A DNA stretch of 64,000 bases from Promicromonospora umidemergens. Its GTDB lineage: Bacteria; Actinomycetota; Actinomycetes; Actinomycetales; Cellulomonadaceae. Below, in pieces: positions 38,746-55,061 of this stretch (the first letter of the stretch is position 1; every line of letters begins with the position of its first letter). A model generated the notes under the pieces. That model was not told the origin of the DNA and did no database searches. It saw only the letters and a program-made list of their open reading frames with translations. The stretch spans positions 124,001 to 188,000 of the forward strand of contig NZ_JAMTCT010000005.1 of NCBI RefSeq assembly GCF_024171995.1, read 5' to 3'. The translations under genes and the position numbers were made by a program.

Positions 38746-39381
38746 CTACGGGGCGACCTGCTTGGTGACGGACGTCTCGGCCACACGCTCCGCCGCGGCG
38801 CGCGAGGTCGCGGTGTCGGGGCCGGGCTGGGCCGGGAACAGGACCTCGCGGTAGTAGCGCAGCTCGTCGATCGACTCGAGGATGTCGGCCAGCGCGCGGT
38901 GCCCGCCGCCCTTCTTCGGCGAAGCGAAATAGACGCGCGGGTACCAGCGTCGCGCCAGCTCCTTGATCGACGACACGTCGACGATCCGGTAGTGCAGGTG
39001 CTCCACCAGCGCAGGCATGTGCAGGTCGAGGAACGACTTGTCCGTGCCGACGGAGTTGCCGGCCAGCGGTGCCTTGCGAGGTTCGGGTACCCACTCGCGG
39101 ACGTAGGCCAGGATCTGCTCCTGCGCCTCCTCGAGGGTCAGCCCCCCGTCGAGCTCGTCGAGCAGTCCGGACGTGGTGTGCATGGTGCGCACGAAGTCGT
39201 TCATCTGCGCCAGGGCCTCGGCCGGAGGTTTCACGAGGACATCGACACCGGTGCCAAGGACGTTGAGGTCGGAGTCCGTGACGATAGCCGCGACCTCGAC
39301 GAGCGCGTCAGCACGCAGGTCGAGTCCGGTCATCTCGCAGTCGATCCAGACGATGCGCTCGTTGGGGTTGGGAAGGCTCAC
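38746..39381 (-). CDS. orn: Oligoribonuclease
   Basis: The 211-aa DEDDh 3'-5' exoribonuclease degrades short RNA oligonucleotides to nucleotides. The N-terminus IVWIDCEMTGLDLRADALVEVAAIVTDSDLNVLG holds the first Asp and Glu; LAGNSVGTDKSFLDLHMPALVEHLHYRIVDVSSIKELARRWYP holds the second Asp; GGGHRALADILESIDELRYYREVLF holds the catalytic His and last Asp. The C-terminus is slightly longer than the Escherichia coli enzyme (about 181 aa). It lies next to tRNA-His, an arrangement I recall from other actinobacteria. Confidence 0.95.
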   Translation of the reverse strand: MSLPNPNERIVWIDCEMTGLDLRADALVEVAAIVTDSDLNVLGTGVDVLVKPPAEALAQMNDFVRTMHTTSGLLDELDGGLTLEEAQEQILAYVREWVPEPRKAPLAGNSVGTDKSFLDLHMPALVEHLHYRIVDVSSIKELARRWYPRVYFASPKKGGGHRALADILESIDELRYYREVLFPAQPGPDTATSRAAAERVAETSVTKQVAP

Positions 39382-41014: not shown

Positions 41015-41938
41015 CTACGCCTCGCCCGGGAGCGCCTTGCGGATGACCAGGCGCGTCCAGGCACCGATGAAGATCCGGTCGCCCTCCTCGATCTCCTTGC
41101 GTACGCCCTGGGTCAGCGGGGTGTCCGGCAGGGGGTCGCCCGTGGCAGCGACGAAGGTGCCGTTCGACGACCCCAGGTCCTCCACCCACCAGCGCAGCCC
41201 GTCGGTGGTCAGCTGGCAGTGGCGCCGTGACACTCCTGGGTCGCTGCCGCAGTCGACGTCGGGCCGGATGCCGCGGGACTGCGACGGCCGCCCCACCAGG
41301 AGGCTGCGCTGCCGCAGCGTGACCAGGCCGGGCAGGCCGGCGGACGGCATCGGGTCCTCTGGCCGCTCGTGCGCGTACCAGTCGGGATCGACCCAGATCT
41401 CCGCCACCCAGGTGTCGTCGCCCGGCACCGGCGGCGCGCTGAGCCCGGCACCGCCCGGCGACGGCGCGGGCGCGCTGCCCGACGACGGTGTGGGCGCACC
41501 GCTCGGCGGCACCGGCCCACCCGACCGGTGGTCGAGCCCGTCGAGACCTGCGGCCTGCGGCGGTGCCGCGGGCCGAGACACCGGTGCGGGCACGCTCGAC
41601 GACGGCGGGGCTGCTGCCGGCGGGGCCGCGCCCAGGTCCAGCACCGACGACGGCGGCGGTGCGGGCGCGGCCGGTGTGCCGGTGGTGAAGTCGTACCCGC
41701 AGTTCTCGCAGAACAGCGACCCGGCGGGGGAGGGCTCGCCACAGTTGGGACAGGTCACGGGGCCGCCGGACGAGGCCTCGGACGGAGCCTCGGACGAGGT
41801 CTCGACCGGCTCGGCCCCCGGTTGCCCGGGCCCGGCTCCTGGCCCGGCCGCCGACGCCCCGGCGGGGATGGGCGTGCCGCACACGTCGCAGTAGTCCGTG
41901 GCCGTGCTGTTGTGGCCTTCCGGGCAGGTGACCGTCAT
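41015..41938 (-). CDS. FHA-domain protein with two N-terminal zinc ribbons
   Basis: The 307-aa protein starts with two zinc-ribbon-like Cys sets (CPEGHNSTATDYCDVCGTP and CPNCGEPSPAGSLFCENCGYDF), followed by a 120-residue Pro/Ala/Ser linker. The C-terminal FHA domain (about 210-300) shows SLLVGRPSQS, DPGVSRRHCQL and DLGSSNGTFV, the phosphothreonine-binding loops. It is the last gene of the PknG operon and overlaps the vWA gene by four bases. By analogy with GarA/OdhI, FHA partners of PknG in relatives, it is the natural reader or substrate. The linker contains ETSS, only loosely like the GarA phosphosite. Confidence 0.9.
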   Translation of the reverse strand: MTVTCPEGHNSTATDYCDVCGTPIPAGASAAGPGAGPGQPGAEPVETSSEAPSEASSGGPVTCPNCGEPSPAGSLFCENCGYDFTTGTPAAPAPPPSSVLDLGAAPPAAAPPSSSVPAPVSRPAAPPQAAGLDGLDHRSGGPVPPSGAPTPSSGSAPAPSPGGAGLSAPPVPGDDTWVAEIWVDPDWYAHERPEDPMPSAGLPGLVTLRQRSLLVGRPSQSRGIRPDVDCGSDPGVSRRHCQLTTDGLRWWVEDLGSSNGTFVAATGDPLPDTPLTQGVRKEIEEGDRIFIGAWTRLVIRKALPGEA

Positions 41939-43233
41939 GCGCGCCGTACCCGGGTCGTCTTGGTGGATGCGGTGTCGAGTGCCATCTCGTCCAGCTTGGC
42001 GGTATTCCGCTTGAGCCGCACGGTGCCCTCCTCCACGTTCTCCACCTCCACGATCTTGCGCAGGCGCGAGGTGGCGTCGTCGTTGCCGGTCTCGGCGGCG
42101 AGCTGGACGGCGCGGCCGAGCTTCACCGTCGCCGTCGCCTCGTCGCCGGCGGCCTTCGCGGCCAGGCCCTCCTGGATGGCCGAGGCGAGCTCCGCCTGGC
42201 CCGTGTAGTGCGCCACCTCGGGGCTGATCCGGGCGGTGAGCGTCGAGTCGTCCGACCACTTTGCCTTGACCAGGCCGGACGCCGTCACGTCGGCACCCAC
42301 GGCGACCTGGACCCGGGCCGCGAGCTGCTCGGAGCCCACCGGCTTCGACGGCACGCGGACCGCCACGTGGTACTCGCGGGTCTCGTCGGCCCACGCGCCC
42401 GTCGGGTACGCGCTGGTGAGGGCGTTCACCTCGGTCCGGCGGCCGGTGAGGTCGTCGACCTCCGGCGCGACCTGCCGGACGAACAGGACCTGCGAGCCCT
42501 GCGGTGCCCACACGCGGAGGTCCACCGAGGCGACGCCGCGGGCCATGGACTTGCGCACCAGGGCGGCGAAGTCCTCGGCGATGTCCTCCGGCCGCGCGAT
42601 GAGGTCGACGGTGCCGAGCAGGGCGGTCGAGATCTTGCGCAGCTCGTCGACCACCCAGCGGTCGCCGACGCCGCGGGCGTCGCACTGGAAGTGCCCGGTG
42701 ACTTCCGCGATCATCTGGTTCAGGTGGGCGGACGGCTCGGACTCGTTCTTGCCGTCCGTCAGCAGGATCAGGTGCTTCTGGGCCACCGGGACGGCAGCGA
42801 AGAGGTCGTCGGCGAGGCGGAGCCAGGACGAGATGGCGGTGCCGCCGGCCGCCGCCATGGTGGAGATGGCGCGCTTGGCCTCGCTGCGGGCGCCGGGCTC
42901 CATCGCCACCATCGGCACGCGCGCGTTGGGATACGGGAAGATCCGGGACGCCACGTGCGAGCCGCCGATGATCGCGAACAGCGTGCCGTCGGGGATCTGG
43001 TCCACGGCGACGGCCGCGGCGTGCTTGGCGGCCTCCATGTTGCGGCCCTGCATGGACCCGGAGGTGTCGACGGCGACGATCTCGGCGACACCGTCCGCGC
43101 CGGCGTCCGCGCCGGCGACAGCGCGCTGGGTGGTCCCGGCGCCCGTGCACGTCACGGCGACGACGGCGTGCACGTCGGTGGCGCCGTCGGACAGGAACTC
43201 GTTCTGGAAGACCTCGGCGGAGAACTCGGCCAC
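41935..43233 (-). CDS. von Willebrand factor A domain protein
   Basis: The 432-aa protein has an intact MIDAS start AVDTSGSM (Asp56, Ser58, Ser60) and continues through the vWA fold (LFAIIGGSHVASRIFPYP, GGTAISSWLRLADDLFAAVP, HLILLTDGKNES). A beta-rich domain follows and a C-terminal helical domain (about 350-432). No signal peptide is seen, so it is cytosolic. GTG 43233 lies behind AGAGGAG. Cytosolic vWA proteins often act with AAA+ ATPases; one is encoded in this operon at 50227. It starts 25 bases after the phosphatase stop. Confidence 0.9.
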   Translation of the reverse strand: MAEFSAEVFQNEFLSDGATDVHAVVAVTCTGAGTTQRAVAGADAGADGVAEIVAVDTSGSMQGRNMEAAKHAAAVAVDQIPDGTLFAIIGGSHVASRIFPYPNARVPMVAMEPGARSEAKRAISTMAAAGGTAISSWLRLADDLFAAVPVAQKHLILLTDGKNESEPSAHLNQMIAEVTGHFQCDARGVGDRWVVDELRKISTALLGTVDLIARPEDIAEDFAALVRKSMARGVASVDLRVWAPQGSQVLFVRQVAPEVDDLTGRRTEVNALTSAYPTGAWADETREYHVAVRVPSKPVGSEQLAARVQVAVGADVTASGLVKAKWSDDSTLTARISPEVAHYTGQAELASAIQEGLAAKAAGDEATATVKLGRAVQLAAETGNDDATSRLRKIVEVENVEEGTVRLKRNTAKLDEMALDTASTKTTRVRRA

Positions 43234-43258
43234 GGTGGCTCCTCTCGGTAACGGCAGG

Positions 43259-44368
43259 CTATCGCTGCTCGGTGACAGTGGGGGAGACACGGGCGAGCGC
43301 CGCGGTGATGTTGTCCCGCCCGCCCTGTGCGTTGGCCCAGCGCACGAGCGCCGCGGCCGTGGTGTGCGGGTCGCCGGAGCCGGCGAACCGCCGCACGAGG
43401 TCATTCATCTCGTGCGCGTCGGAGCAGTAGTTCCACAGGCCGTCCGAGCAGACCAGCAGCCAGCCGGGCCCGGAAGGGACGGTCGCGGCACAGCGGGCGT
43501 CGGTGTCCGGGGCGTCGGGACCGAGCCACCGCGTGATGGCGTGCGCCTGCGGCGACGTCTCCGCCTGCGCCCGCGGCACGCCCGCCGCGATCATCTCCTG
43601 GGCCCAGGAGTCGTCGACGCTGAGCTGCTCCGCCTGGCCGGAGTCCGGCAGCCAGTACACGCGGGAGTCGCCCAGCCAGCCGGCGACCACGAGACCCTGG
43701 TCCACGACGGCGGCCACGAAGGTGCACGACGGCGGGTCGTCCGTCACGTCCTTGCCCTTCGTCGCGGCGAGCTGCTCCGCCGCACCCCGCACGGCCTGGC
43801 TCGCGGCGCGCGACGCGGCGACCATGGCGTAGGTCCACCCGGCGACGCGGCGGCTGGTCGCGCCCTCGACGGAGCTCGACCCCTCGGGCCCGTAGGCCAC
43901 CAGCACGTCCCGTGCGGCCCGGCTCGCGGCGAGCGAGGCGATGTCGGAGTCGGGTGCGCTCGACACGCCGTCGCACACGACGAGGGCGGCGAAGGTGCCG
44001 CCGGCGGCGAGCGCCATCGCGTCCTCGTTGCGGGCGTGCCGCACGCCCCGGTCGCAGACGCCGGCGACCCAGTCGGCAGGGCGTTCCTCGAAGTGGTCGC
44101 GCTCGGACTGGCCGGGCGTGCCGCAGTCGGCGCAGTACCCGTCCGGTGCGATGGTGCCGCCGCAGGCGCCGCACCGGCGTGCGGAGGAGTCGCCCGTCGC
44201 GGGGTCGGGGTCCACCACCGTGGGAGCCGGCTCGAGGGTGACCTCGGAGGGAGCGGTCCCCTCGGCGCTGCCCAGCGGTGTGCCGCAGTTCTCGCAGAAT
44301 CTGGCGCGGGGCGCCGCGTTCTCTCCGCAGTTGGGGCAGCGGGCGAGGCTACTGTCGTCGGCGCTCAT
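43259..44368 (-). CDS. PP2C-type Ser/Thr protein phosphatase with zinc ribbons
   Basis: The 369-aa protein begins with two zinc-ribbon modules (ARCPNCGENAAPRARFCENCGTP, and CGACGGTIAPDGYCADCGTPG). The PP2C domain (about 100-360) carries GVCDRGVRHARNEDAMAL and ALVVCDGVSS (metal-binding Asp), VAGWLGDSRVYWL, ITRWLG, WLLVCSDGLWNYC and GGRDNITAALARV. It should remove phosphate from PknG targets or from PknG itself. AAGGAGA precedes the ATG. The 123 bases between pknG and this gene form the largest gap inside the operon and may hold a secondary promoter. Confidence 0.93.
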   Translation of the reverse strand: MSADDSSLARCPNCGENAAPRARFCENCGTPLGSAEGTAPSEVTLEPAPTVVDPDPATGDSSARRCGACGGTIAPDGYCADCGTPGQSERDHFEERPADWVAGVCDRGVRHARNEDAMALAAGGTFAALVVCDGVSSAPDSDIASLAASRAARDVLVAYGPEGSSSVEGATSRRVAGWTYAMVAASRAASQAVRGAAEQLAATKGKDVTDDPPSCTFVAAVVDQGLVVAGWLGDSRVYWLPDSGQAEQLSVDDSWAQEMIAAGVPRAQAETSPQAHAITRWLGPDAPDTDARCAATVPSGPGWLLVCSDGLWNYCSDAHEMNDLVRRFAGSGDPHTTAAALVRWANAQGGRDNITAALARVSPTVTEQR

Positions 44369-44491
44369 GTCTGGGTCGGTCTCCTTGCGTCCGTCAGGGC
44401 TCGCACCCCGCGACTGTCTTTCAGCGGATCACCGTGAGCGGTTCACCGTCCGGCTGTTGGTGTGCGCCGGGTTCCGGGTCGGGCGTACCGC

Positions 44492-46774
44492 TCAACGCAT
44501 CGTCCACCGCCGTACGGAGTTTGCCCGGTCGACGAGCGCCACGCGCTCCGAGCGGTCGTCGGTGAGGTGGGCGAGGTCGCGCAGGGCGACCTCGAGGCGG
44601 TCCCGCAGCTCTGGCTCGCTGGCCTCGGCGCCGGCCACCCGCACGCTCGGGTCGGGTCCGCCGCGGGTGACCAGGCCGAGCGCGCCGGAGAGGGCGTCGA
44701 CGGTGACAGCGGCCTTGGGGCGGTCGGGGACGTGGGCGGCATCGAGCCCGGCGACGGCGTCGGACAGGTCGACCAGGGTGCGCCGTGCGCCGACCAGCAG
44801 GTGGGCCCGCCGCAGGCGGGCGTCGGGGAACGAGCCTCGGGTGGGGCCCACCAGGTCGAGGGCACGGAGGGCGCCGTCGAGGTCGCCACCCGACGACCGC
44901 ACGCGGGCGAGGCCGAACGCGGCGGCGCCGGTGTAGTTGGCGTCGGCTCGCGCGATGGTGCTGTACAGCTGCTCCGCGACGCCGGGCTCGCCCGAGACCT
45001 CGCAGACGGTGGCGAGGGCGAGCTTCGGCGCGGGCTCGCCGGGAACCTGCCCGTAGACGGCGTTGAAGGACGCGCGGGCCGAGGCGGGGTTGCCGGTCGA
45101 GAGGTGCCCGAGGCCCTCCATCCAGGCGGCGCGCCACTCCCACGGGTCGTGCTCGAGGATCTGTGCGACGGTGGCACGCAGCCGGTCGTCGTCGCCGGCC
45201 TCGATGGCGGCGCGCGCCATGGCGAGCCGTACCTCGACGGTGGCCTCGCCGGCTCCGGCGAGCGCCACCATGCGGGCCGCCGGGTCGGCGACGTTCACGC
45301 CGGCCAGCCAGGACGCCAGCGGGTCGGTGGAGTCCACCTTCAGCAGGGGGAGCTCGTGCCAGCCCAGGGCACCCTCGGCGCCGTCGAGCGGCGGCACGCC
45401 GAACAGGACCGACTCCGCCGACGTCGTGGCGGTGTACCCGCGGCCCTTGTCGGTGGCGACGACCTCGCGGAGCACCCCGAGGAGCTGGACGCGGGCCTCG
45501 TCGACCCCGGCGAACCGGTCGGCGGGCTCCGGCGCGCACGCCTTGGCGAGCCAGCGGTAGAACGAGTCGTACTTCTGGAAGACGGGTGTGTCGGCGACCG
45601 GCGGGAAGGACGCCTGGTACACCGTGGTGTTGCCGCGGAAGTCCAGCACGAGGGAGGCCAGGGTGCGGCCGAGCGTGAAGATGTCGGACGCGACGGACGG
45701 CCCGATCTCGGCGACCTCTGGCGCCTGGTAGCCGACGGTGCCGTAGATCGCGGACTGGAGGTCGTCGGTGCGGCGTACGCCGCCCATGTCGATCAGCTTG
45801 ACGCCGTCGCCCTGGGCGATGATGTTGTCCGGCTTGAAGTCGCAGTAGAGCAGGCCGCGGTCGTGCAGGTAGCTGAAAGCGGGCAGCACCTCGAGGAGGT
45901 ACGCGATGGCCTGGTCGACGGGCAGCGGCCGGGCCTGCCCGGCACCCAGGTCACGGCGTTCCTTGAGCACGTCCTTGAGCGACTTGCCGCCCACGAACTC
46001 CATGACGGTGTAGCCGAGACCCTCGTGGAGCACGAAGTTGAAGATCTCGACGATCAGCGGGTGCTCGACCTCTGCGAGGTACTGCCGCTCGGCGACGGCA
46101 GCCTCGTACGCCTCCTTGTCGCCCGAGTTGAGCAGGCCCTTGAGGACCACCCAGCGACCGCTGACGTTGCGGTCGCGGGCCAGGTAGATCCAGCCGAGGC
46201 CACCGTGGGCGAGGCAGCCGACCACCTCGTACTGGCGGGCCACGAGGTCACCCGCCTTGAGCGCGGGGGCGAAGTCGTATCTTGCGCCGCAGTGGCCGCA
46301 GAACCCGGCGATGCGGCCGGGCACGCCCTCCCTGGTCCGCCCCACCGGCTGCCCGCACGTGGGGCAGTACCGCTTGCTCTCCGCGAGCTCCGGCGTGGCC
46401 ATGACGGCCTGCAGCGGGTCGGCCACCGGGGTGTGCGGCACCGTGGTGAGGCCCGCGCCCAGCCGGTGCCCGCGCAGGCGCGTCGAGCCGGTGCCCACCC
46501 GTCGCGTCTGGTAGGTGCCCGGCGCCACGCGGGCCGAGCCGAGGGCCGTCGACGCGAGGCGGGACGAGCTGGTGCGCCCGGTGGAGGGCTGCTCCATGGC
46601 TCCGGGCAGCCCGTCAGAGGAACGCACCGTCGTGTCGTCGGCACCCCACGCTGCCGCGACCGCCGCGAGCGCACCACCTGCGGGGTTGCCGCCCGCCGGC
46701 GCCCCGCACACGTTGCAGTAGCCGTCCTCGATGGTGCCGCGGCAGCCCGGCTCGGCGCACGTCTGTGTCGTCAT
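44492..46774 (-). CDS. pknG: PknG-type Ser/Thr protein kinase with TPR region
   Basis: The 760-aa soluble kinase has an N-terminal zinc ribbon (C6, C11, C20, C23), a disordered region, a rubredoxin-like module (C127, C130, C149, C152) and the kinase domain (about 170-430): GGLGWIYLA glycine loop, VVLKGL lysine, LLYCDFKPDNII catalytic loop and LIDMGGVRR in place of DFG. These match the unusual PknG subfamily. The C-terminal half is TPR-like helical repeats. Compared with mycobacterial PknG it has an extra N-terminal ribbon. It overlaps the upstream helical-protein gene by four bases. Confidence 0.95.
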   Translation of the reverse strand: MTTQTCAEPGCRGTIEDGYCNVCGAPAGGNPAGGALAAVAAAWGADDTTVRSSDGLPGAMEQPSTGRTSSSRLASTALGSARVAPGTYQTRRVGTGSTRLRGHRLGAGLTTVPHTPVADPLQAVMATPELAESKRYCPTCGQPVGRTREGVPGRIAGFCGHCGARYDFAPALKAGDLVARQYEVVGCLAHGGLGWIYLARDRNVSGRWVVLKGLLNSGDKEAYEAAVAERQYLAEVEHPLIVEIFNFVLHEGLGYTVMEFVGGKSLKDVLKERRDLGAGQARPLPVDQAIAYLLEVLPAFSYLHDRGLLYCDFKPDNIIAQGDGVKLIDMGGVRRTDDLQSAIYGTVGYQAPEVAEIGPSVASDIFTLGRTLASLVLDFRGNTTVYQASFPPVADTPVFQKYDSFYRWLAKACAPEPADRFAGVDEARVQLLGVLREVVATDKGRGYTATTSAESVLFGVPPLDGAEGALGWHELPLLKVDSTDPLASWLAGVNVADPAARMVALAGAGEATVEVRLAMARAAIEAGDDDRLRATVAQILEHDPWEWRAAWMEGLGHLSTGNPASARASFNAVYGQVPGEPAPKLALATVCEVSGEPGVAEQLYSTIARADANYTGAAAFGLARVRSSGGDLDGALRALDLVGPTRGSFPDARLRRAHLLVGARRTLVDLSDAVAGLDAAHVPDRPKAAVTVDALSGALGLVTRGGPDPSVRVAGAEASEPELRDRLEVALRDLAHLTDDRSERVALVDRANSVRRWTMR

Positions 46775-47874
46775 CGGTTTCCCTTCGGAAGATCGCGCAC
46801 GAGCATCTCGAGCTGCTCGGTGAAGTGCCGTGCCATGGCGAGGTCGCAGGGCGCGGCGTCCAGCGCTTCGCGCGCCTCGTCCTCGCCCGCCTTCACGGTG
46901 GACGACGTCGCCCGGCCGTTGCCCTGGGCCTTCGTCATCAGGTTCTTGACGCGGTAGCGCAGCTCGGCGCGTTCGCGCAGTGGTGCGGTGTAGGCGTCCT
47001 CGACCCGCTCCATGGCCCGTTCGACGGCGCCCAGCCGCTGGACGTAGGTCGTCAGCCGGTCGGGCTCGTCCGGGACGTCACCGAGGCGGGTCACGTCCGG
47101 GACCGCGAGCCGCGGCGGGTCCGTGATCTCCCTGCGGCAGCGTTCCGCCACGCGGGTGAGCACGGGCGTCCGGTCCGCCAGGGTGGTGCGCAGCGCGACG
47201 GCGCGCTCCCGGTCCTTGGCGAGCGACCGGCGCCTGGCGGTCGCCACGATGAGGTCCCGCTCGGCGCGGGCGACGTCGTCCTCGAGCGCGCCGAGCGGCC
47301 CGGTCACGTCGGCTCCGCGGGCGGCGTCGGAGGTGAGGCGGGCGAGCCGGTCGCGCAGGCGGGCGACGACGGCGTCGTCCTCGGTGTCGGCGGACGCGTG
47401 GGCGGCGTCCTCGGCCCGGACGATGCCGCCGGACAGGGCCCGCAGGCGAGCGGTGACGTCGGCGGCGTGCGGGTCGAACGAGAGCCGGGTGGCGAGCTGG
47501 TCGGCCTGGGCGTCGCACAGGCGCGCGGCGTCGACGAGGGAGAGGAGCGACGTGGCGGGGTCGCCGCCGAGGCGGCCCCAGATCAGCTGGGACATGCGTT
47601 CGCGGGCGACGGCGTCCGCTCGGCCGGAGTCCCACACCGTGACCAGCTCGTCCGTGCGCGTGCGTACCGCCTGCCACAGGGTCAGGGCCAGCACGATGTC
47701 GGCCGTCACGGCGTTCTCGCCGGAGTGACGGGCCGTGGAGTCCAGCCGGTCGAGGTCGGCGCGGCGTGCGTCGAGCCACGCCTGGAGGTCCGACAGGTAG
47801 GTCAGCAGCGCAGCGGGCTCTGCCGCCACGCCGAGTGCGCCGGGCGGCGCCGGTGCGCGTTGCACCCTGGTCAC
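46771..47874 (-). CDS. Helical protein of unknown function between GlnH and PknG
   Basis: This 367-aa protein is almost entirely alpha-helical, Arg/Ala/Leu/Asp-rich, with heptad-like stretches (for example ALLTYLSDLQAWLDARRADLDRLD, RAERDLIVATARRRSLAKDRERAVALRTTLADRT). It has no signal peptide or membrane helix, so it is cytosolic. I recognise no domain. It overlaps both neighbours by four bases, so stoichiometric production with GlnH and PknG is likely. A scaffold or adaptor between the membrane sensor and the kinase is plausible. It has no counterpart in the three-gene mycobacterial locus as I know it. Confidence 0.8.
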   Translation of the reverse strand: MTRVQRAPAPPGALGVAAEPAALLTYLSDLQAWLDARRADLDRLDSTARHSGENAVTADIVLALTLWQAVRTRTDELVTVWDSGRADAVARERMSQLIWGRLGGDPATSLLSLVDAARLCDAQADQLATRLSFDPHAADVTARLRALSGGIVRAEDAAHASADTEDDAVVARLRDRLARLTSDAARGADVTGPLGALEDDVARAERDLIVATARRRSLAKDRERAVALRTTLADRTPVLTRVAERCRREITDPPRLAVPDVTRLGDVPDEPDRLTTYVQRLGAVERAMERVEDAYTAPLRERAELRYRVKNLMTKAQGNGRATSSTVKAGEDEAREALDAAPCDLAMARHFTEQLEMLVRDLPKGNR

Positions 47875-48896
47875 GGCGTCCGCCCGTAGACGGGCTCCGG
47901 TGCGGTGGGCGCTGGACCGAGCGCGTCACCCAGCCAGCGCTCGTAGGACTCCTCCCACTGCCCGCCGGCGACCATGTCCTCCAGCACGCCGTTCACGAAC
48001 CGCACCATGTCCGGCTGGTCGGCGGGCACGCCGACGCCGTAGGGCTCGTCGCTCACGGGATCGCCCACCACCTTCGCGTACGGGTCCTGCGCGGCGAAGC
48101 CCGCCAGGACCGTGTCGTCGCCGGTGATGGCGTCCACCGCGCCCTGCTGGAACAGGACCAGGCAGGTGGTGTGGGTGGCGGCCGGCACCGCCTCGACGCC
48201 CTCCCACTCCCCGAGCCGCTCCAGGGTGGTGGTGCCCTCGGGCGCGCAGACCCGCTGCCCGGAGAGGTCGTCGATGCTCGCGACGTCCGACGTCGAGGGC
48301 ACCAGCAGCTTCTGGCCGGCGTGGTAGTACTCCGCCGAGAACGCGATGTTCTCCCAGCGCTCGCAGTTGATGGTGAAGGCACGGGCCACGATGTCGACCT
48401 GGTGGTCCTGCAGCACGGCCTCGCGGTCGCCCGACGTGATCACGCGGTACTGGATCGCGTCCGGGTCGCCGAAGATCGCCTCGGCCACCTGGCGGGCCAC
48501 GTCGATGTCGAAGCCCTCGATGTCGCTCGTGAACGGGTCACGGGAACCCATCAGCAGGGTGTCCGCCGAGACACCCACGCGGAGGAAGCCTTGCTCGCGG
48601 ATGTCGGCCATCGTGGAGCCGGACGTCACCTCCGGGCTGCCGCCCGGGTCCAGCGACGCGACGGCAGGCTGCCCGTCACCGCAGTCCTGGGCCGCGGTGG
48701 CCGTGCCGGACGCCGCGGCGCCGCTCGGCGCCTGCGGGGCGGACTCCTGCACGGACTCCTGCGTCGTCGAGCTCATCCCGGCAGCGCCGGTGAGCAGGTG
48801 CGTCGTCGTCTCGGGCGCGCACGCCGCCGTCGTGCCGACCAGGGCGAGCGCGACGAGGGCTGTGACGATCGGTCTGCGGGCTGCGCGCGTGCTCAT
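47871..48896 (-). CDS. glnH: GlnH-like amino-acid-binding lipoprotein
   Basis: This 341-aa lipoprotein has a lipobox ending at Cys26 (GTTAAC) and a Ser/Thr/Ala-rich spacer. It then has a family 3 solute-binding domain: FLRVGVSADTLLMGSRDPFTSDIEGFDIDVARQVAEAIF, VDIVARAFTINCERWENIAFSAEYY, GQRVCAPEGTTTLERL and PYGVGVPADQPDMVRFVNGVL. In mycobacteria the equivalent protein binds aspartate/glutamate and signals through GlnX to PknG. No ABC permease is present, supporting a sensory and not a transport role. It overlaps glnX by four bases. Confidence 0.92.
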   Translation of the reverse strand: MSTRAARRPIVTALVALALVGTTAACAPETTTHLLTGAAGMSSTTQESVQESAPQAPSGAAASGTATAAQDCGDGQPAVASLDPGGSPEVTSGSTMADIREQGFLRVGVSADTLLMGSRDPFTSDIEGFDIDVARQVAEAIFGDPDAIQYRVITSGDREAVLQDHQVDIVARAFTINCERWENIAFSAEYYHAGQKLLVPSTSDVASIDDLSGQRVCAPEGTTTLERLGEWEGVEAVPAATHTTCLVLFQQGAVDAITGDDTVLAGFAAQDPYAKVVGDPVSDEPYGVGVPADQPDMVRFVNGVLEDMVAGGQWEESYERWLGDALGPAPTAPEPVYGRTP

Positions 48897-50230
48897 CGGT
48901 ACTCCTTCAGACGGACGTTCATCCCGGCGGCAGCGGCCACGGCCCCTGCGACACCGAGCACGAGGGCGATCCAGGCCGCGACCTGCGCGGTGGTCGCCGC
49001 TGAGCCGAGCCGGTCGACCGCATCCTTGCTCGTGGTCTCGACCTCGGCCTGGGCCCGGTCGGAGAACGCGGCGAAGGCGGCGCCCGCCGAGTCGTCGGCC
49101 GGGGACGTCGCGGCCTGCACGGCGGCGTCCCAGTCGTTCCCGTCGTCCAGCGCACGGATCTCGGCGTGCTTGGCGTCCCACTCGTCCAGCAGCTCCGCGG
49201 GTCCGGGGACACCCGCGCCGCCGCCCTCGGTGCTGAGGGTGGCGTCCTCCGCCTCGCCCAGGAGGTCCCGCGCCGCGGCGACCGACGTCTGGTAGGACTC
49301 CTCGAACTCGCCGCCCGAGCCGCGCTTGATCAGCGTGAACGACTCCATCGACTTCGCGTCGGTGGCCAGCGACAGGGCCTCCGACGTGGCGACGGTCGCC
49401 GCGTACGGGCCGCTCGCGACCGACCTGGCCACGCCGTTGCCGCCCAGCACGGCGGCCGTCACCACCACGCCGCCCACCAGGAGAGCGGCGCTCGCGGCGG
49501 CCAGCCCGGTGTTCAGGACGCGGTGCGTGCGCCGGGCGAGCCAGAGCTGGACGGCGCCCAGCGCCACCAGCGACAGCAGCACGAACAGCAGCAGCGCCTG
49601 GGCGAGGGAGACGGAACCCATGTCGGCGTCGACCCGCTGCGACGTCGAGACCGCCACCTCGTCGATGGTCGGCAGCACCTCGTCACGTAGCGCCGACGAC
49701 GCCTGGTCCAGGTAGGCGGCGCCGACGGGGAAGCCCTGCCGGTTGTTCGCCCGGGCCGACTCGACCAGACCCGCGTAGCGCTGCACCGAGTCGGACACCG
49801 CGGCGAGGTCGGCGGCCTCGCCGTCGCCCCGCGCGGTCGCCGCAAGGGACGGGACGGCCTGCGCGGCCTCGGACAGGCTCGTCTCGTAGCGGTCACGCGC
49901 CTCCGCGGGCTCCAGCCCGCCCACCAGGAACGCGTTGGTCGCCGTCGCGTCCGCCGACACCAGGTCGTTGCGCAGCTCCTGCGTGCCCACCAGCTGGGCC
50001 GCGTCCCGCTGTGCGTCCCGCAGGGCCGCGGACTGGCCGTTGCCCGCGAGGAAGCCGGTCACGCCCAGCAGCAGGCACGCCACCACTGCCACCGTCGTGG
50101 CCAGCGCCAGCCGGCCCGGCGTGGTCGCCAGGCCTGCCGCGAACCGGGACCCCGGGATGGTGGGCGCCGGCCCGGCGCCCGTGCCGGGTGCGGGCGAGCC
50201 CGGGTTCGTCGTCGTCAGCGGTGCGGTCAC
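48893..50230 (-). CDS. glnX: GlnX-like transmembrane sensor
   Basis: The 445-aa membrane protein has helix 1 (about 40-63, LALATTVAVVACLLLGVTGFLAG), an extracellular helical domain of about 145 residues, two central helices (about 210-230 and 243-265), a second extracellular helical domain, and a last helix near 415-435 ending NVRLKEYR. The duplicated helical-domain layout resembles four-helix-bundle receptors of chemoreceptor type and matches the position of GlnX next to GlnH. It probably transmits ligand binding by GlnH across the membrane. It overlaps the AAA+ ATPase gene by four bases. Confidence 0.85.
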   Translation of the reverse strand: MTAPLTTTNPGSPAPGTGAGPAPTIPGSRFAAGLATTPGRLALATTVAVVACLLLGVTGFLAGNGQSAALRDAQRDAAQLVGTQELRNDLVSADATATNAFLVGGLEPAEARDRYETSLSEAAQAVPSLAATARGDGEAADLAAVSDSVQRYAGLVESARANNRQGFPVGAAYLDQASSALRDEVLPTIDEVAVSTSQRVDADMGSVSLAQALLLFVLLSLVALGAVQLWLARRTHRVLNTGLAAASAALLVGGVVVTAAVLGGNGVARSVASGPYAATVATSEALSLATDAKSMESFTLIKRGSGGEFEESYQTSVAAARDLLGEAEDATLSTEGGGAGVPGPAELLDEWDAKHAEIRALDDGNDWDAAVQAATSPADDSAGAAFAAFSDRAQAEVETTSKDAVDRLGSAATTAQVAAWIALVLGVAGAVAAAAGMNVRLKEYR

Positions 50231-51588
50231 GTGGTGGCCTCGCTGTCAGTCCCGATGTCCACGACATCCTCCAGGTCTTCCGGGACCAGCGTGCGCAGCT
50301 GGTCCAGCGTCGGTCGTTCAACGTCCCGCAGGCGCCAGGCGTGCCGGGCAACTGCGGAATCCAGCACATTGCGTGCCCACCGTCCGTTGCCGAAGCCCTC
50401 GCCGCGTGCCTGGTCCGCCGCCAGGCGGTCGAACCGCTCCAGCGCGGCCGGTTCCGGCTCGAAGTCGGCGGCCCGTGCCATGGACCCGAAGATCTGCCGC
50501 AGCTCGTCGGAGGAGTAGTCCTCGAACGTGATGGTACGGGCGAACCGGCTCTCCAGGCCCGGGTTGGTGCCGATGAACCGGGCCATCGGGCCGGGGTAGC
50601 CGGCCACGACGACCACGAGGTCGTCGCGGTGGTCCTCCATGTCCTTGACGAGGGTATCGACGGCCTCGCGACCGTACTGGTCCTCGGCCAGGGCGTACGC
50701 CTCGTCGATGAACAGCACGCCACCCAGGGCACGCTCCACCACCGCGGTCGTCTTCTCGGCCGTCTGACCCAGGTAGCCCGCCACCAGCTCGGACCGGTCC
50801 ACCTCCACGAGGTGCCCCTTGTCCAGCAGGCCCAGTGCCCGGTAGATCCCGGCGACGAGCCGGCCCACGGTCGTCTTGCCAGTGCCGGGGTTGCCGACGA
50901 ACACCAGGTGGCGTGTCAGCGTCGGAGCGCTCAGGCCTGCCTCGCCGCGGAGGCGCTCGATGCGGAGGAGCTCGGTCTGGCGGTGTATCTCGTCTTTGAC
51001 CCGTCCTAGTCCGATGAGCTGGTCTAGCTCTTCCAGGAGTTCTTCCAGGGTTTTCTCTGGTTCTGGTTCCGGTTCTGGTTCCGGTTCTGGTTCTGGGGCG
51101 GGTTCTTCGGACCCCACGGCCTTTCCTGTTCCGTCGCCTTCGCTGGTGGGGAACTGTGGCTGGGTGGTGGTTGGTGCCTTGTCTCGGCCCTGGGCCGCGC
51201 TGCGGTGGACTGCCTTGGTGCCCTCTGCCGCTGCGATGGCGCTGATGCTGGGGTCGCCAAGGTTTGCCGCGGCGTCGACGACGGCGGCCAGTGCTTCTGC
51301 GTACCGGGTGCTGTGGGGGGAGCCGGTCGCGATGAGGTTGTTGAGCAGGTCGGTGGGGGCGTTGCGCCAGCGGCGGGCGCTCATGGCGGCGTCGAAGAAC
51401 GGCTGCAGGCTGCCCGACGCCGGACGGGCGGTCGCGGCGATCCAGTCCGCCGGGGCGCCGGTGGACGACTCGGCCACCGCTGCCGCCAGCCGTTCGCCCT
51501 CGGTGCGTGCGGCAGGGCCGCTCACGCCGGCCGCGGTGGCTGTCGCGGCGAGGGCGTCGAGGGCTGCGGCGAACGCCGTCGTGCTCAC
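50227..51588 (-). CDS. CbbX/EccA-like AAA+ ATPase
   Basis: This 453-aa protein has an Ala-rich helical N-terminal domain (1-130), then a linker with a run of alternating Glu-Pro (about 162-178). The AAA+ module follows: Walker A VGNPGTGKTT (231-240), Walker B GGVLFIDEAYALA (about 282-294), VVVVAGYPGPMARFI (sensor 1 region) and NGRWARNVLDSA (sensor 2 region). The GYPGPM text is typical of the CbbX/EccA-CT group. No type VII secretion genes are present, so EccA function is not implied. GTG 51588 follows GGAGG. It overlaps the next upstream gene by four bases. Confidence 0.9.
   Translation of the reverse strand: MSTTAFAAALDALAATATAAGVSGPAARTEGERLAAAVAESSTGAPADWIAATARPASGSLQPFFDAAMSARRWRNAPTDLLNNLIATGSPHSTRYAEALAAVVDAAANLGDPSISAIAAAEGTKAVHRSAAQGRDKAPTTTQPQFPTSEGDGTGKAVGSEEPAPEPEPEPEPEPEPEKTLEELLEELDQLIGLGRVKDEIHRQTELLRIERLRGEAGLSAPTLTRHLVFVGNPGTGKTTVGRLVAGIYRALGLLDKGHLVEVDRSELVAGYLGQTAEKTTAVVERALGGVLFIDEAYALAEDQYGREAVDTLVKDMEDHRDDLVVVVAGYPGPMARFIGTNPGLESRFARTITFEDYSSDELRQIFGSMARAADFEPEPAALERFDRLAADQARGEGFGNGRWARNVLDSAVARHAWRLRDVERPTLDQLRTLVPEDLEDVVDIGTDSEATT
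51056..51112 (-). repeat. Glu-Pro codon repeat within the AAA+ gene
   Basis: On the coding strand CCAGAA/CCGGAA hexamers repeat about eight times, encoding the Glu-Pro linker. These codons end in A, unlike the C/G-ending codons elsewhere in the gene, and the neighbouring linker (about 51000-51200) is also T- and A-rich at third positions. Confidence 0.75.
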
Positions 51589-52160
51589 GGGGCCTCCAGG
51601 GGTCGGTGACCCGGCCCGGTCTCGGGGCCCGACGACCCGGGGGGCGCCAGGGTGCCGGGGGCCGACCCGGGGAGCGTCAGGCCCGACGTGCCGAACTTCT
51701 CCTCGAGGAACCGGCCGTGGGCCACGAGGGCGACGGCGTCGGCCCGCGACACGGCGTCGGAGATCTTGTCGATCGTGGCGCCCAGCAGGTCCAGCTGGTC
51801 GCACAGGATCATGAGCGACGTCTTGCCGCGGTCGACGACGCGCCGGTCGGCGAAGTCACGCGGGAGGCGCAGGTAGGCGTCGACGGCCTCGGGCAGGTAG
51901 CTCGTCGCGGTGGCGACCACGGTGTGCGCCTGCTGGGAGCCGGCGCCGAGCCGGTCGAGGCGGGGCGCCATCTCGTGCACGGTCTCGGCCACCCGCTGCA
52001 CCCGGGCGGTCACGGCGGCGGGCGCCCTTCCGGTCGCGCGCTCCAGCACCGCGTCGACGGACGTCACGATCTGCTCGGTCGTGGGCGGGGCCGGGATCGC
52101 GACGGTCTGCTCCACCTCCTCGGCGCGTCCGCCGCCGAAGAGTCGCCGCCACCAGCTCAT
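51585..52160 (-). CDS. Conserved helical protein of the TelA-AAA+ pair, function unknown
   Basis: The 191-aa protein starts MSWWRRLFGGGRAEEVEQ; the WWRRLFGGG opening could touch the membrane. A mainly helical body follows (IVTSVDAVLERATGRAPAAVTARVQRVAETVHEMAPRLDRL, then LPEAVDAYLRLPRDFADRRVVDRGKTSLMILCDQLDLL), ending in a disordered Pro/Gly tail. I do not recognise the family. ATG 52160 has GGAGG five bases upstream; the longer reading from 52184 lacks this. It overlaps the AAA+ gene by four bases and follows telA by 20 bases. Confidence 0.75.
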   Translation of the reverse strand: MSWWRRLFGGGRAEEVEQTVAIPAPPTTEQIVTSVDAVLERATGRAPAAVTARVQRVAETVHEMAPRLDRLGAGSQQAHTVVATATSYLPEAVDAYLRLPRDFADRRVVDRGKTSLMILCDQLDLLGATIDKISDAVSRADAVALVAHGRFLEEKFGTSGLTLPGSAPGTLAPPGSSGPETGPGHRPLEAP

Positions 52161-52180
52161 GCCTGCCTCCGAGCCCGCCG

Positions 52181-53401
52181 TCACGGGGTGTTGAGGTCGA
52201 GAGAACCGCTCGCCACGCCGTCGGTGTTGGTGCGTCGTGCTCGCTCCACGTACTCCGTGGCCTTGGTGGTCTCGGTCTGCAGCACGCCGATGGTCTGCGA
52301 CATCGAGTCGAGCGCCCGCAGCTTGAAGTCGCTGATCGAGTCCATCGTGGCGTAGATGTTGGCGAACGCCTCCTGCAGCTGCTCGATGCCGACCGTCGAG
52401 CTGGCGGCCTGCTCCTGGATGGTCGCCGACTGGTCGGCGAGCATCTTGGAGGTCGAGGCGATCATGTTCGACGTCGTGGTGTTCAGGGCACCGATCTGGT
52501 CCAGAACGAGCTTCTGGTTCGCGAGCGCCTGCGCCACGATGACGGCGGTGCGCAGCGCGGAGACCGTCGTGGTGGTGGCGCGGTCGACGCCCTTCGTGAG
52601 CTCGATGTTGTTCTTGATGATGATGTCGATCGCGAGGTAGCCCTGGATCGAGACCGCGAGCTGCGTGAGCAGGTCCTGGTGCTTCTGGCGCACGTAGAAC
52701 AGTACGTCCTCGGACAGCGCCTTGGCCCGCTCGGGCTCGGCGATCTGGAGCTCGGCGATCTTCGTGGCGAGCTGGGCATCGAGGCGCTCGGCCACGTAGA
52801 TGTACTGGTTCAGGCGCGCCATCGTGTCCCAGAGGTTCTGCTTCTCCAGGTTGAGCGCGGCGTTGTCCTTGCGCAGCTCGTCCTGGCCGTTGTAGAGCGC
52901 CTGGATGATGGCGTTGAGCTGGCCCTGCGCGGACTCGTAGCGGCGGAAGTAGTCCTGGATCTTGTCGCCGAACGGGATGACGCCGAGGAACTTGCGCCCG
53001 ACGCTCGCCTCGGACGGGTCCAGGTCCTCGACGGTGCGGCGCAGCTCCAGCAGGGTCTGACCCACCTTGGAGCCGTCGGCCAGGCCGCCCTCCTTGAGGG
53101 CCCGGACGGGCGTGGCGAGCAGCCGGTTGCTGGAGTCGGCGGCCTGCCGGATGTCCTGGTCGCCCATGGTGCGCACGTCGTCGGCGCGCGTGGCGAACTC
53201 CGGGCTCTTGGTGTCGGCGCTGAGGAGGCCGTCGAGGTAGGTGCTGACCTTCTTGTCGAGCGCGGGCGCCGCGGCGGGGTCCACCTTCGGTGCGATCTTG
53301 GGCGCCTGGGTCGCTGCGACGGGCTGGACCGGGTCGGGTGCGCTGAGCACGAGGGGCTCGGCGGCGGAGGCGGGTGGTTGAAGCGGCATCGGCTCGGTCA
53401 T
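52181..53401 (-). CDS. TelA-like toxic-anion-resistance family protein
   Basis: The 406-aa protein has a Pro/Ala-rich N-terminus and then the TelA family core. Landmarks are FLGVIPFGDKIQDYFRRYESAQGQLNAIIQALYNGQDELRKDNAALNLEKQNLW, YIYVAERLDAQLATKI, FYVRQKHQDLLTQLAVSIQGYLAIDIIIKNNIELTKGVDRATTTTVSALRTAV and LEQ-type repeats to the end. Family members are linked with tellurite resistance and envelope stress, but the biochemical role is unknown. ATG 53401 follows GAGGAG. It is the first gene of the PknG operon, so its promoter drives the set. Confidence 0.88.
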   Translation of the reverse strand: MTEPMPLQPPASAAEPLVLSAPDPVQPVAATQAPKIAPKVDPAAAPALDKKVSTYLDGLLSADTKSPEFATRADDVRTMGDQDIRQAADSSNRLLATPVRALKEGGLADGSKVGQTLLELRRTVEDLDPSEASVGRKFLGVIPFGDKIQDYFRRYESAQGQLNAIIQALYNGQDELRKDNAALNLEKQNLWDTMARLNQYIYVAERLDAQLATKIAELQIAEPERAKALSEDVLFYVRQKHQDLLTQLAVSIQGYLAIDIIIKNNIELTKGVDRATTTTVSALRTAVIVAQALANQKLVLDQIGALNTTTSNMIASTSKMLADQSATIQEQAASSTVGIEQLQEAFANIYATMDSISDFKLRALDSMSQTIGVLQTETTKATEYVERARRTNTDGVASGSLDLNTP

Positions 53402-54264: not shown

Positions 54265-54684
54265 TCAGCCTTCATGCCAGTCGTAGCCGTCGGTCCATCC
54301 CGACGGCAAGTCCTGGGGCCTTGCCCACCGAGTTTTGCCGGGCGTCACGTGAACACCCGGAACTACTTCCCAATCGGGACCCTGTGGGTAGATTGCCTCG
54401 GAGAATGACATGTCGTCTGGATGCAACCACACGCATTCAGCGCGGTCGCAGAATAGGATTGCCGAGCCTTGGTCCGCGATCAGTGGTCGCAGGAGACCCT
54501 GGTCAAGATTCGGGCACCCATATACGAGCCCTGAAGGTGACGTGAACGTGCCGTCCGCCTGCCTTGTCAGGCTGCTGTGCCCGGCGTTGTGGACGGGGAT
54601 CGGTGTGGCGCCGGCGTGGACATAGATCGCCTTCGCGAACTCCACCCGCGCTGCCATCTCAAGCGGGGTAACCGCTCTGGTCAC
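54265..54684 (-). CDS. Orphan polymorphic-toxin tip with Hint C-terminal remnant
   Basis: The 139-aa protein contains AKAIYVHAGATPIPVHNAGHSS near its start, nearly the same as YYVHAGSTPILVHNAGHT at the end of the Hint domain of the full toxin at 55061. The remaining 100 residues (GTFTSPSGLVYG ... GWTDGYDWHEG) differ completely from the full toxin's tip and match no family I know. This is the structure of an orphan C-terminal cassette used to swap toxin tips by recombination. GTG 54684 overlaps the immunity stop (GTGA). Whether it is translated is uncertain. Confidence 0.7.
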   Translation of the reverse strand: MTRAVTPLEMAARVEFAKAIYVHAGATPIPVHNAGHSSLTRQADGTFTSPSGLVYGCPNLDQGLLRPLIADQGSAILFCDRAECVWLHPDDMSFSEAIYPQGPDWEVVPGVHVTPGKTRWARPQDLPSGWTDGYDWHEG

Positions 54685-55061
54685 AATCCCGTGGGGTAGA
54701 TTTCCAAGTCGTCCGGGGCGATAGCGACCGTCGCTCCGACAAGGTCGCCCGACGGGCTGTCGTCCAGTTCAACTTGCACGATCGAACCGCCAATTTTTAC
54801 CATGAGAATTCCATCGTCAAAAAACTCTATAACCGTCCCGACGATGAGGTCTGACGGAACGTTGCGGGCAGCCTCGGCGCTGGCATGGCTAGCGATGTCA
54901 CCCCAAGCGCGGGAGTTTGGAAACTCCAGTTCGACATCGACACTCTCTCCGGAGTTGACCGGTGAATCTCCGCGCCACACACCGAGAATGGGGCCGATAT
55001 CCGTTTGTATACGGAGATCCGACCCTTGTCCGTCAATGCTGGCGAGCACGACTCCATGCAT
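54681..55061 (-). CDS. Putative immunity protein of the Hint-domain toxin
   Basis: The 126-aa acidic, beta-rich protein (HGVVLASIDGQGSDLRIQTD; VGTVIEFFDDGILMVKIGGS; VAIAPDDLEIYPTGL) has no signal peptide. I recognise no named family. Its ATG overlaps the toxin's TAA stop (TAATG), the tight coupling expected of toxin-immunity pairs. Its lower GC matches the toxin tip region. Immunity function is inferred from position, size and acidity only. Confidence 0.65.
   Translation of the reverse strand: MHGVVLASIDGQGSDLRIQTDIGPILGVWRGDSPVNSGESVDVELEFPNSRAWGDIASHASAEAARNVPSDLIVGTVIEFFDDGILMVKIGGSIVQVELDDSPSGDLVGATVAIAPDDLEIYPTGL

Follow-up and report, generated by a model that had tools for sequence, protein, structure and literature searches.

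A ten-gene form of the GlnX-GlnH-PknG signalling operon in Promicromonospora umidemergens and its relatives

Which genes belong to the operon of the Ser/Thr kinase PknG? Excerpts of earlier work describe the three-gene operon glnX-glnH-pknG as a conserved unit (PMC8546545, PMC6069109) and link GlnX/GlnH, PknG and GarA genetically in mycobacteria and corynebacteria (PMC6069109, PMC9769921, PMC8546545). The contacts of GlnX with GlnH and with PknG are treated there as an assumption rather than as demonstrated (PMC9769921). We analyzed a window from Promicromonospora umidemergens (the whole stretch of 64,000 nucleotides, contig NZ_JAMTCT010000005.1, positions 124,001 to 188,000), in which ten genes fill positions 53401-41015 of the minus strand in the order telA, h191, AAA+, glnX, glnH, h367, pknG, PP2C, vWA and FHA. 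Six junctions are overlaps of exactly 4 bases, and the remaining gaps, taken from the coordinates, are 20 (telA/h191), 123 (pknG/PP2C) and 25 bases (PP2C/vWA). All of this (gene order, strand, coordinates, six overlaps and three gaps) had been proposed in an earlier sequence-only reading and was confirmed. With the GTG at 52184 as an alternative, telA/h191 would overlap by 4 bases as well. The ten genes are best explained as one signalling operon, in which the GlnX-GlnH-PknG system occurs in extended form. Our reading of how it works, to which we assign a probability of roughly 0.6, is that GlnX gates PknG, the operon phosphatase PP2C opposes it, zinc ribbons tether both to a scaffold containing the von Willebrand factor A (vWA) protein, and the FHA protein couples the phosphorylation state to an AAA+/TelA assembly besides GarA.

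We profiled gene order around pknG in relatives, the comparison that the sequence-only reading had proposed as its own check. PknG rubredoxin family matches above the cut-off were found in 42/396 of a phylum sample, 23/59 relatives, 87/198 of the family and 147/393 of a class sample. From these, 80 loci centred on pknG, none longer than 20 kb, were picked non-randomly, for spread across genera, and 80 further loci were collected through the operon TelA (the best 80 of at least 580 confirmed matches, among which the closest relative of the window TelA was that of Promicromonospora kroppenstedtii, at 95%). Open frames were labelled with profiles that were seeded with the ten window proteins and extended iteratively over the sampled loci. 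Besides the window, 37/80 pknG-centred loci carry all ten genes on one strand and in order. The complete unit was present in 10/10 sampled loci of the same genus and in 19/25 other sampled loci of the family (eight genera), and it also occurs in two further families of the order and in another three of the class. Variable or absent flanking genes beside pknG, the outcome that would have spoken against a single unit, were in the main not seen; they were found in one genus of the family, reduced to glnX-glnH-pknG-PP2C (hereafter the short-operon genus), and in genome G429, reduced to glnX-glnH-pknG-FHA. Among TelA-found loci with enough reach, h191 followed TelA in 71/72, AAA+ in 64/67 and pknG in 61/63. 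The misses were L165 for h191, L086, L124 and L144 for AAA+, and L124 and L144 for pknG; draft gaps of 700 N and 100 N lie in L086 and L124, respectively.

The junctions themselves are also conserved. With the window included, exact 4-base overlaps were counted at h191/AAA (87/110), AAA/glnX (100/103), glnX/glnH (107/119), glnH/h367 (69/93), h367/pknG (107/116), pknG/PP2C (102/122) and vWA/FHA (39/66). They are uncommon at PP2C/vWA (17/111) and telA/h191 (13/118), and the 123-base pknG/PP2C gap of the window is a minority arrangement at that junction. Because the 4-base overlaps recur across loci, the arrangement is not due to chance. A promoter scan of the operon returned no promoter-like site, with a method that covers actinobacterial promoters poorly, and terminator-like sites in the operon scan were at chance level only.

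The unit has sharp borders, and neighboring genes are kept only within lineages: the best upstream family outside the ten was found in 14/101 loci, mostly of one Nocardioides-type lineage, and the best downstream family in 15/39, mostly of the window's own and nearest genera. We tallied strong h191 matches (at least 130 bits) and pknG by hand across 198 family genomes. Both were present in 82, pknG only in 5 (four of the short-operon genus and G429), h191 only in 2 (one genome 92% complete, the other in 350 contigs) and neither in 109. Weak h191 matches (below 60 bits, scored as absent) occurred in 18 genomes, two of them among the pknG-only five and sixteen among the 109. Within genera, the block is thus mostly retained or lost as a whole. 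It could be argued that housekeeping signalling genes sit together passively, by chance or slow rearrangement, since actinobacterial genomes are dense and many of the loci share ancestry. However, the flanks are not retained, the 4-base overlaps recur, and the unit is patchy within the family yet comes and goes as a block. We regard passive clustering as highly improbable and dropped it, as it is contradicted by the co-occurrence, the overlaps and the unretained flanks.

If the unit signals as a whole, what are its parts, and are they intact? All genes lie on the minus strand. The first, at 52181..53401 (406 aa, ATG start), is telA-like (PF05816 TelA, 310 bits, above the cut-off of 30) and is the single match in its own genome at E<=0.001; its profile found no match among solved chains at E<=0.01. 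The h191 gene (51585..52160) encodes an all-helical protein of 191 aa, and h367 (46771..47874) an all-helical protein of 367 aa with long helices. Neither belongs to a Pfam family, scanning the members of both families one by one against Pfam returned single stray matches only, and their AlphaFold2 models (mean predicted local distance difference test scores 86 and 95) had no match among solved structures at E<=0.001. A scan of viral contigs for h367 produced 14 pattern matches, none of which was confirmed. The AAA+ ATPase (50227..51588, GTG start) has AAA and AAA_lid_6 domains and is of the CbbX/SpoVK/EccA type, with CbbX (3syk, E 8e-60) and EccA1 (9lur, E 7e-52) as closest structures; its N-terminal ~180 aa fall outside any assigned family. 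GlnX (48893..50230) is a transmembrane signal transducer and GlnH (47871..48896) a solute-binding lipoprotein (SBP_bac_3). PknG (44492..46774) has a ribbon-rubredoxin-kinase-TPR architecture (PF16919, PF00069, PF16918; PknG structure 2pzi, E 7e-136). It is followed by the PP2C-type phosphatase with a double zinc ribbon (43259..44368; PF13672; NF033484, 97 bits), the vWA protein (41935..43233, GTG start; PF13768 VWA_3, PF18571 VWA_3_C) with a metal ion-dependent adhesion site (MIDAS) motif, and, as the last gene, the FHA protein with two N-terminal ribbons (41015..41938; PF00498, DZR).

We compared residues that we take to be functionally important in the kinase, PP2C, vWA, FHA and AAA+ alignments, excluding the window row. 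The five checked kinase residues of PknG were invariant in 142/142 rows, the PP2C metal and core residues, except R113 and E115, in 120/120, the MIDAS residues in 88/88, the Walker residues in 104/104, and G216, R217, S237 and N259 of FHA in 62/62. FHA R238 is His in 14/18 rows from operons with PP2C-vWA-FHA and no telA module (vWA-type, as opposed to telA-type), and H240 is Gln in 6/43 telA-type rows. Catalytic and ligand residues are thus nearly invariant in the alignments. A single device that senses, writes, erases and reads, as the sequence-only reading had envisaged, is supported insofar as the genes are linked, are lost jointly and have predicted active sites that are intact.

What might hold the kinase and phosphatase in one assembly? 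PknG carries an N-terminal zinc-ribbon motif at residues 6-24, before the rubredoxin domain (46703..46759, minus strand; CAEPGCRGTIEDGYCNVCG). PP2C has a first ribbon at 44282-44338 and a second, of the DGYC type like that of PknG, at 44120..44173, and the FHA ribbons are at 41876-41926 and 41696-41752, all on the minus strand and recognized by motif; the likeness among the three proteins is one of motif. One regular expression matched the PknG ribbon in 100/101 telA-type loci (the miss being L086), 15/18 vWA-type loci and 4/24 loci with neither. A slightly wider expression matched in 110/115 loci with vWA; among the other five, L048, L053 and L059 have the motif with its last Cys changed, and L039 and L040 are distant paralogues. 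In both of the latter, a second, distant PknG-like kinase sits beside a vWA gene in a large genome that also has a normal pknG. Where no vWA gene was found and the locus reaches 3.5 kb past pknG, the ribbon was absent in 19/21 (L086 included), with L063 and L085 as exceptions; seven more loci without a vWA match carry the ribbon and end too early to judge vWA. The ribbon was lost at no fewer than four places in the PknG tree (the mycobacteria-like family, L051, the short-operon genus and L019). In the short operons that retain PP2C, those of the short-operon genus, this protein has one ribbon left instead of two (4/4). L019 has an FHA protein with both ribbons and a PknG with none, and L058 has vWA and the PknG motif with no PP2C or FHA match.

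Presence and absence of the PknG N-terminal ribbon thus mostly follow those of the vWA gene, an observation that is new here. Since ribbon and vWA are lost together, we infer that vWA, or h367, is probably the binding partner of the ribbons. This pattern bears on a simpler explanation, in which PknG-GlnX-GlnH acts on GarA alone and an independent stress machine, made up of the telA/h191/AAA and PP2C/vWA/FHA genes, is on the same transcript only so as to be co-regulated. According to the excerpts available, three-gene operons function without the remaining genes (PMC6069109, PMC9769921), which agrees with that explanation, as does a GarA match in every genome tested. However, a PknG used for GarA alone would not be expected to have a ribbon that is mostly found with vWA and missing without it at separate places in the tree, nor would GlnH, rather than the module, be expected to drop out of telA-type operons. 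We therefore consider the GarA-only explanation unlikely, and the tethered kinase-phosphatase reading remains our preferred one.

Is GarA then an output of the operon? Scored against the OdhI model, the best GarA match in the P. umidemergens genome reaches 156 bits, short of the cut-off of 200; it lies outside the operon, on our reading at a DUF881-garA-merR type locus. A GarA match of at least 103 bits was present in 18/18 genomes tested, 11 of them lacking GlnH. A second alternative holds that the vWA/FHA/AAA/TelA assembly is the main output, that GarA is mostly phosphorylated by PknB-type kinases, and that PknG control of GarA came to dominate in the reduced mycobacterial line alone. The PP2C-vWA-FHA form has a wider spread in the tree than three-gene operons do, and GlnH-less operons keep the other parts, with a GarA match in 11/11 such genomes; both fit this alternative. 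However, PknG retains its rubredoxin, kinase and TPR domains, and the N-terminus of the genome's own GarA has DTTA, reminiscent of the ETTS motif described in the excerpt of PMC8546545. We judge this alternative somewhat less probable still than the GarA-only one, and favor GarA together with a second, inferred output through the vWA/AAA+/TelA assembly.

What does the operon sense? GlnX exceeds the cut-off of NF058618 (300.4 bits, cut-off 250) and falls below that of the equivalog NF041460, 'protein kinase G-activating protein GlnX' (137 bits, cut-off 780), and we therefore file it under the subfamily, not the equivalog. Among solved structures, mycobacterial GlnH (6h1u, E 1e-65) is the closest in sequence to the window GlnH. 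In that protein, R147, T162, S164, R169, W232 and D250 contact the ligand in the aspartate pocket, as given in the excerpt of PMC6069109. By hand-mapped numbering, the window GlnH has R, A, T, R, H and D at these positions: 3/6 are identical, Thr conservatively replaces S164, and Ala and His stand in place of T162 and W232. Across telA-type operons the W232 position is His in most and Trp in none of the 84/85 rows shown. Judging from the pocket residues, the window GlnH should bind an amino acid, not necessarily aspartate.

The glnH gene is missing in 16/100 telA-type operons (L106, L107, L109, L122, L123, L126, L133, L142, L143, L147, L150, L153, L154, L162, L163 and L164), where GlnX is weak or below 60 bits and the GlnX-like membrane protein is very divergent. 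L106 has an additional 504-aa open frame with hydrophobic segments at the place of glnH. In 11 GlnH-less genomes, the window GlnX as query found nothing outside the operon, its two matches both lying inside; the query missed the operon's own divergent copy in 9 of the 11, and a divergent copy elsewhere could escape it too. These operons are perhaps the same machine with a different input. The input proposed earlier needs qualifying: an 'extracellular aspartate/glutamate' signal is unsafe here because GlnH is missing in some operons and 2/6 pocket residues are changed.

Which form of the operon came first? A tree of PknG built from 85 chosen rows (quick method, midpoint-rooted) places every telA-type operon in a single clade of 50 rows (support 100), 45 with telA and five nested rows without. 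The five are three of the short-operon genus, L019 and L085, the last being an extra pknG copy in a genome that carries h191 beside another pknG. Two genomes of the family, G515 and G516 (L085), have 6 and 4 pknG rubredoxin matches, two of them in one 20-kb locus of L085. PP2C-vWA-FHA operons without the telA module are scattered over several deeper lineages, including a family of 6-11 Mb genomes, by inference Streptomyces, and a single genome from a different class. In one vWA-type family, glnX-glnH is positioned after FHA, and L036, a locus in a genome of another class, has h367-pknG-PP2C-vWA-FHA and next to it, on the other strand, glnH and glnX. The AAA+/vWA pair of the sequence-only reading is therefore not obligate, as there are other lineages that have PP2C-vWA-FHA and lack telA, h191 and AAA.

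In the mycobacteria-like family, the three-gene operons cluster with the vWA-type family in which glnX-glnH comes after FHA and with a further family (support 93, with no resolved order inside the group). Because the three-gene form nests among larger operons, it looks reduced. On the simplest reading, PP2C-vWA-FHA came first and the three-gene operon arose by reduction, repeated gain being the alternative; the earlier picture of a three-gene core with additions fits less well, given the broader PP2C/vWA/FHA form. More tentatively, and in our estimate somewhat short of even odds, the ancestral job of PknG may have been to run a membrane-tethered, phospho-switched remodelling machine, with a vWA scaffold, a helical partner, an FHA reader and its own PP2C eraser, which AAA+, TelA and h191 joined later. 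Kinase and phosphatase would have been plugged into vWA by a like zinc-ribbon tag, the sensors would have been exchangeable, and the mycobacterial three-gene operon would be the remnant after machine and tag were lost.

For the ten-gene operon, our analyses suggest the following course of events. GlnX, with GlnH where present, would relay a signal from outside or from the membrane to the TPR domain of PknG, and PknG would phosphorylate threonines on GarA/OdhI and on partners inside the unit. The operon PP2C would remove these phosphates, with like zinc ribbons holding both enzymes on the vWA-containing scaffold. The FHA protein would bind a phosphorylated partner and couple it to the AAA+ remodeller, TelA, h191 and h367. 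Amino-acid status could in this way set a membrane- or stress-linked remodelling activity besides 2-oxoglutarate flux. The PP2C as PknG eraser, the ribbon docking, the FHA target and the AAA+/TelA output are all proposed by inference.

Several observations weigh against this reading. Over half of the family genomes (109/198) have neither marker, and the short-operon genus and G429 manage with reduced forms. L124 and L144 have telA-h191 with no AAA or pknG match within ~10 kb, and L165, a metagenome-assembled genome named Acidimicrobiaceae, has telA without h191. The 123-base gap ahead of the window PP2C might harbor a promoter. The P. umidemergens genome has two further PP2C matches that might act for PknG, and by its position one of them is PstP-like. 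According to the excerpt of PMC6554272, many Actinobacteria have PstP as their only annotated PP2C. GlnH, as described, is dispensable in some telA-type operons. As for docking, zinc ribbons are common protein-binding modules, and their association with vWA partly reflects shared ancestry. L063, a telA-to-PP2C operon, keeps the PknG ribbon with no vWA or FHA match in the 8 kb that follow, L085 has a ribboned PknG without any other operon gene, and PP2C has fewer than two ribbons in 9/99 telA-type and 3/17 vWA-type loci.

How does the unit relate to known systems? With the GlnH-GlnX-PknG-OdhI/GarA pathway of Corynebacterium and Mycobacterium it shares the glnX, glnH, pknG order, a GlnX above the NF058618 cut-off, the rubredoxin-kinase-TPR architecture of PknG and a GarA orthologue in the genome. 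It differs in h367 between glnH and pknG, in PP2C, vWA and FHA downstream and telA, h191 and AAA upstream, in the extra PknG zinc ribbon, in the two changed GlnH pocket residues and in the absence of GlnH from some relatives. The PpkA-PppA-Fha threonine phosphorylation pathway of the type VI secretion system combines, within a single locus, a membrane-side sensor, a kinase, a PP2C phosphatase, an FHA reader and an AAA+ protein, and the ten-gene unit may work alike, a likeness by description in which sequences were not compared. However, there are no structural genes of that secretion system among the ten, the flanks are unconserved and the kinase is PknG; the unit is not a member of that pathway.

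The AAA+ protein is of the same subfamily as CbbX, EccA and SpoVK but has its own N-terminal region, scores below the cut-offs of all three NCBIfam equivalogs and has no Rubisco, ESX or spore genes among its nine companions. A part of a type VII secretion system was considered and dropped, as the likeness is one of AAA+ subfamily similarity to EccA only. A MoxR AAA+/vWA pair was likewise dropped because AAA_5 scored 14.4 bits (cut-off 22) and the best matches were CbbX/SpoVK/EccA. TelA/Ter stress systems have a TelA protein alongside vWA and AAA+ partners. The unit shares this combination and differs in its coupling to PknG, and no TerC or TerD Pfam match was found among the ten genes. We found no description of the ten-gene operon in searches of the open-licence literature on PknG, TelA and the partner families.

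Beyond the operon, the minus strand of the window encodes a polymorphic-toxin-like protein with T7SS_signal and PT-HINT domains upstream (55061-56773), followed by small open frames. Positions 54265-54684 resemble, by eye, a remnant of a similar C-terminus, with no Pfam match. Downstream, also on the minus strand, is an RNase_T family exonuclease (38746-39381), presumably oligoribonuclease-like.

PknG has been much studied. As to its dedicated phosphatase, its partners beyond GarA and the role of its N-terminus, the larger unit, conserved in many soil actinobacteria, offers candidates: a phosphatase and an FHA reader encoded beside it, a possible docking motif tracking its putative partner, and a membrane or stress output. 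The GlnH-less operons are natural variants that may take another input, and the textbook three-gene PknG operon may be a stripped-down version of a larger unit.

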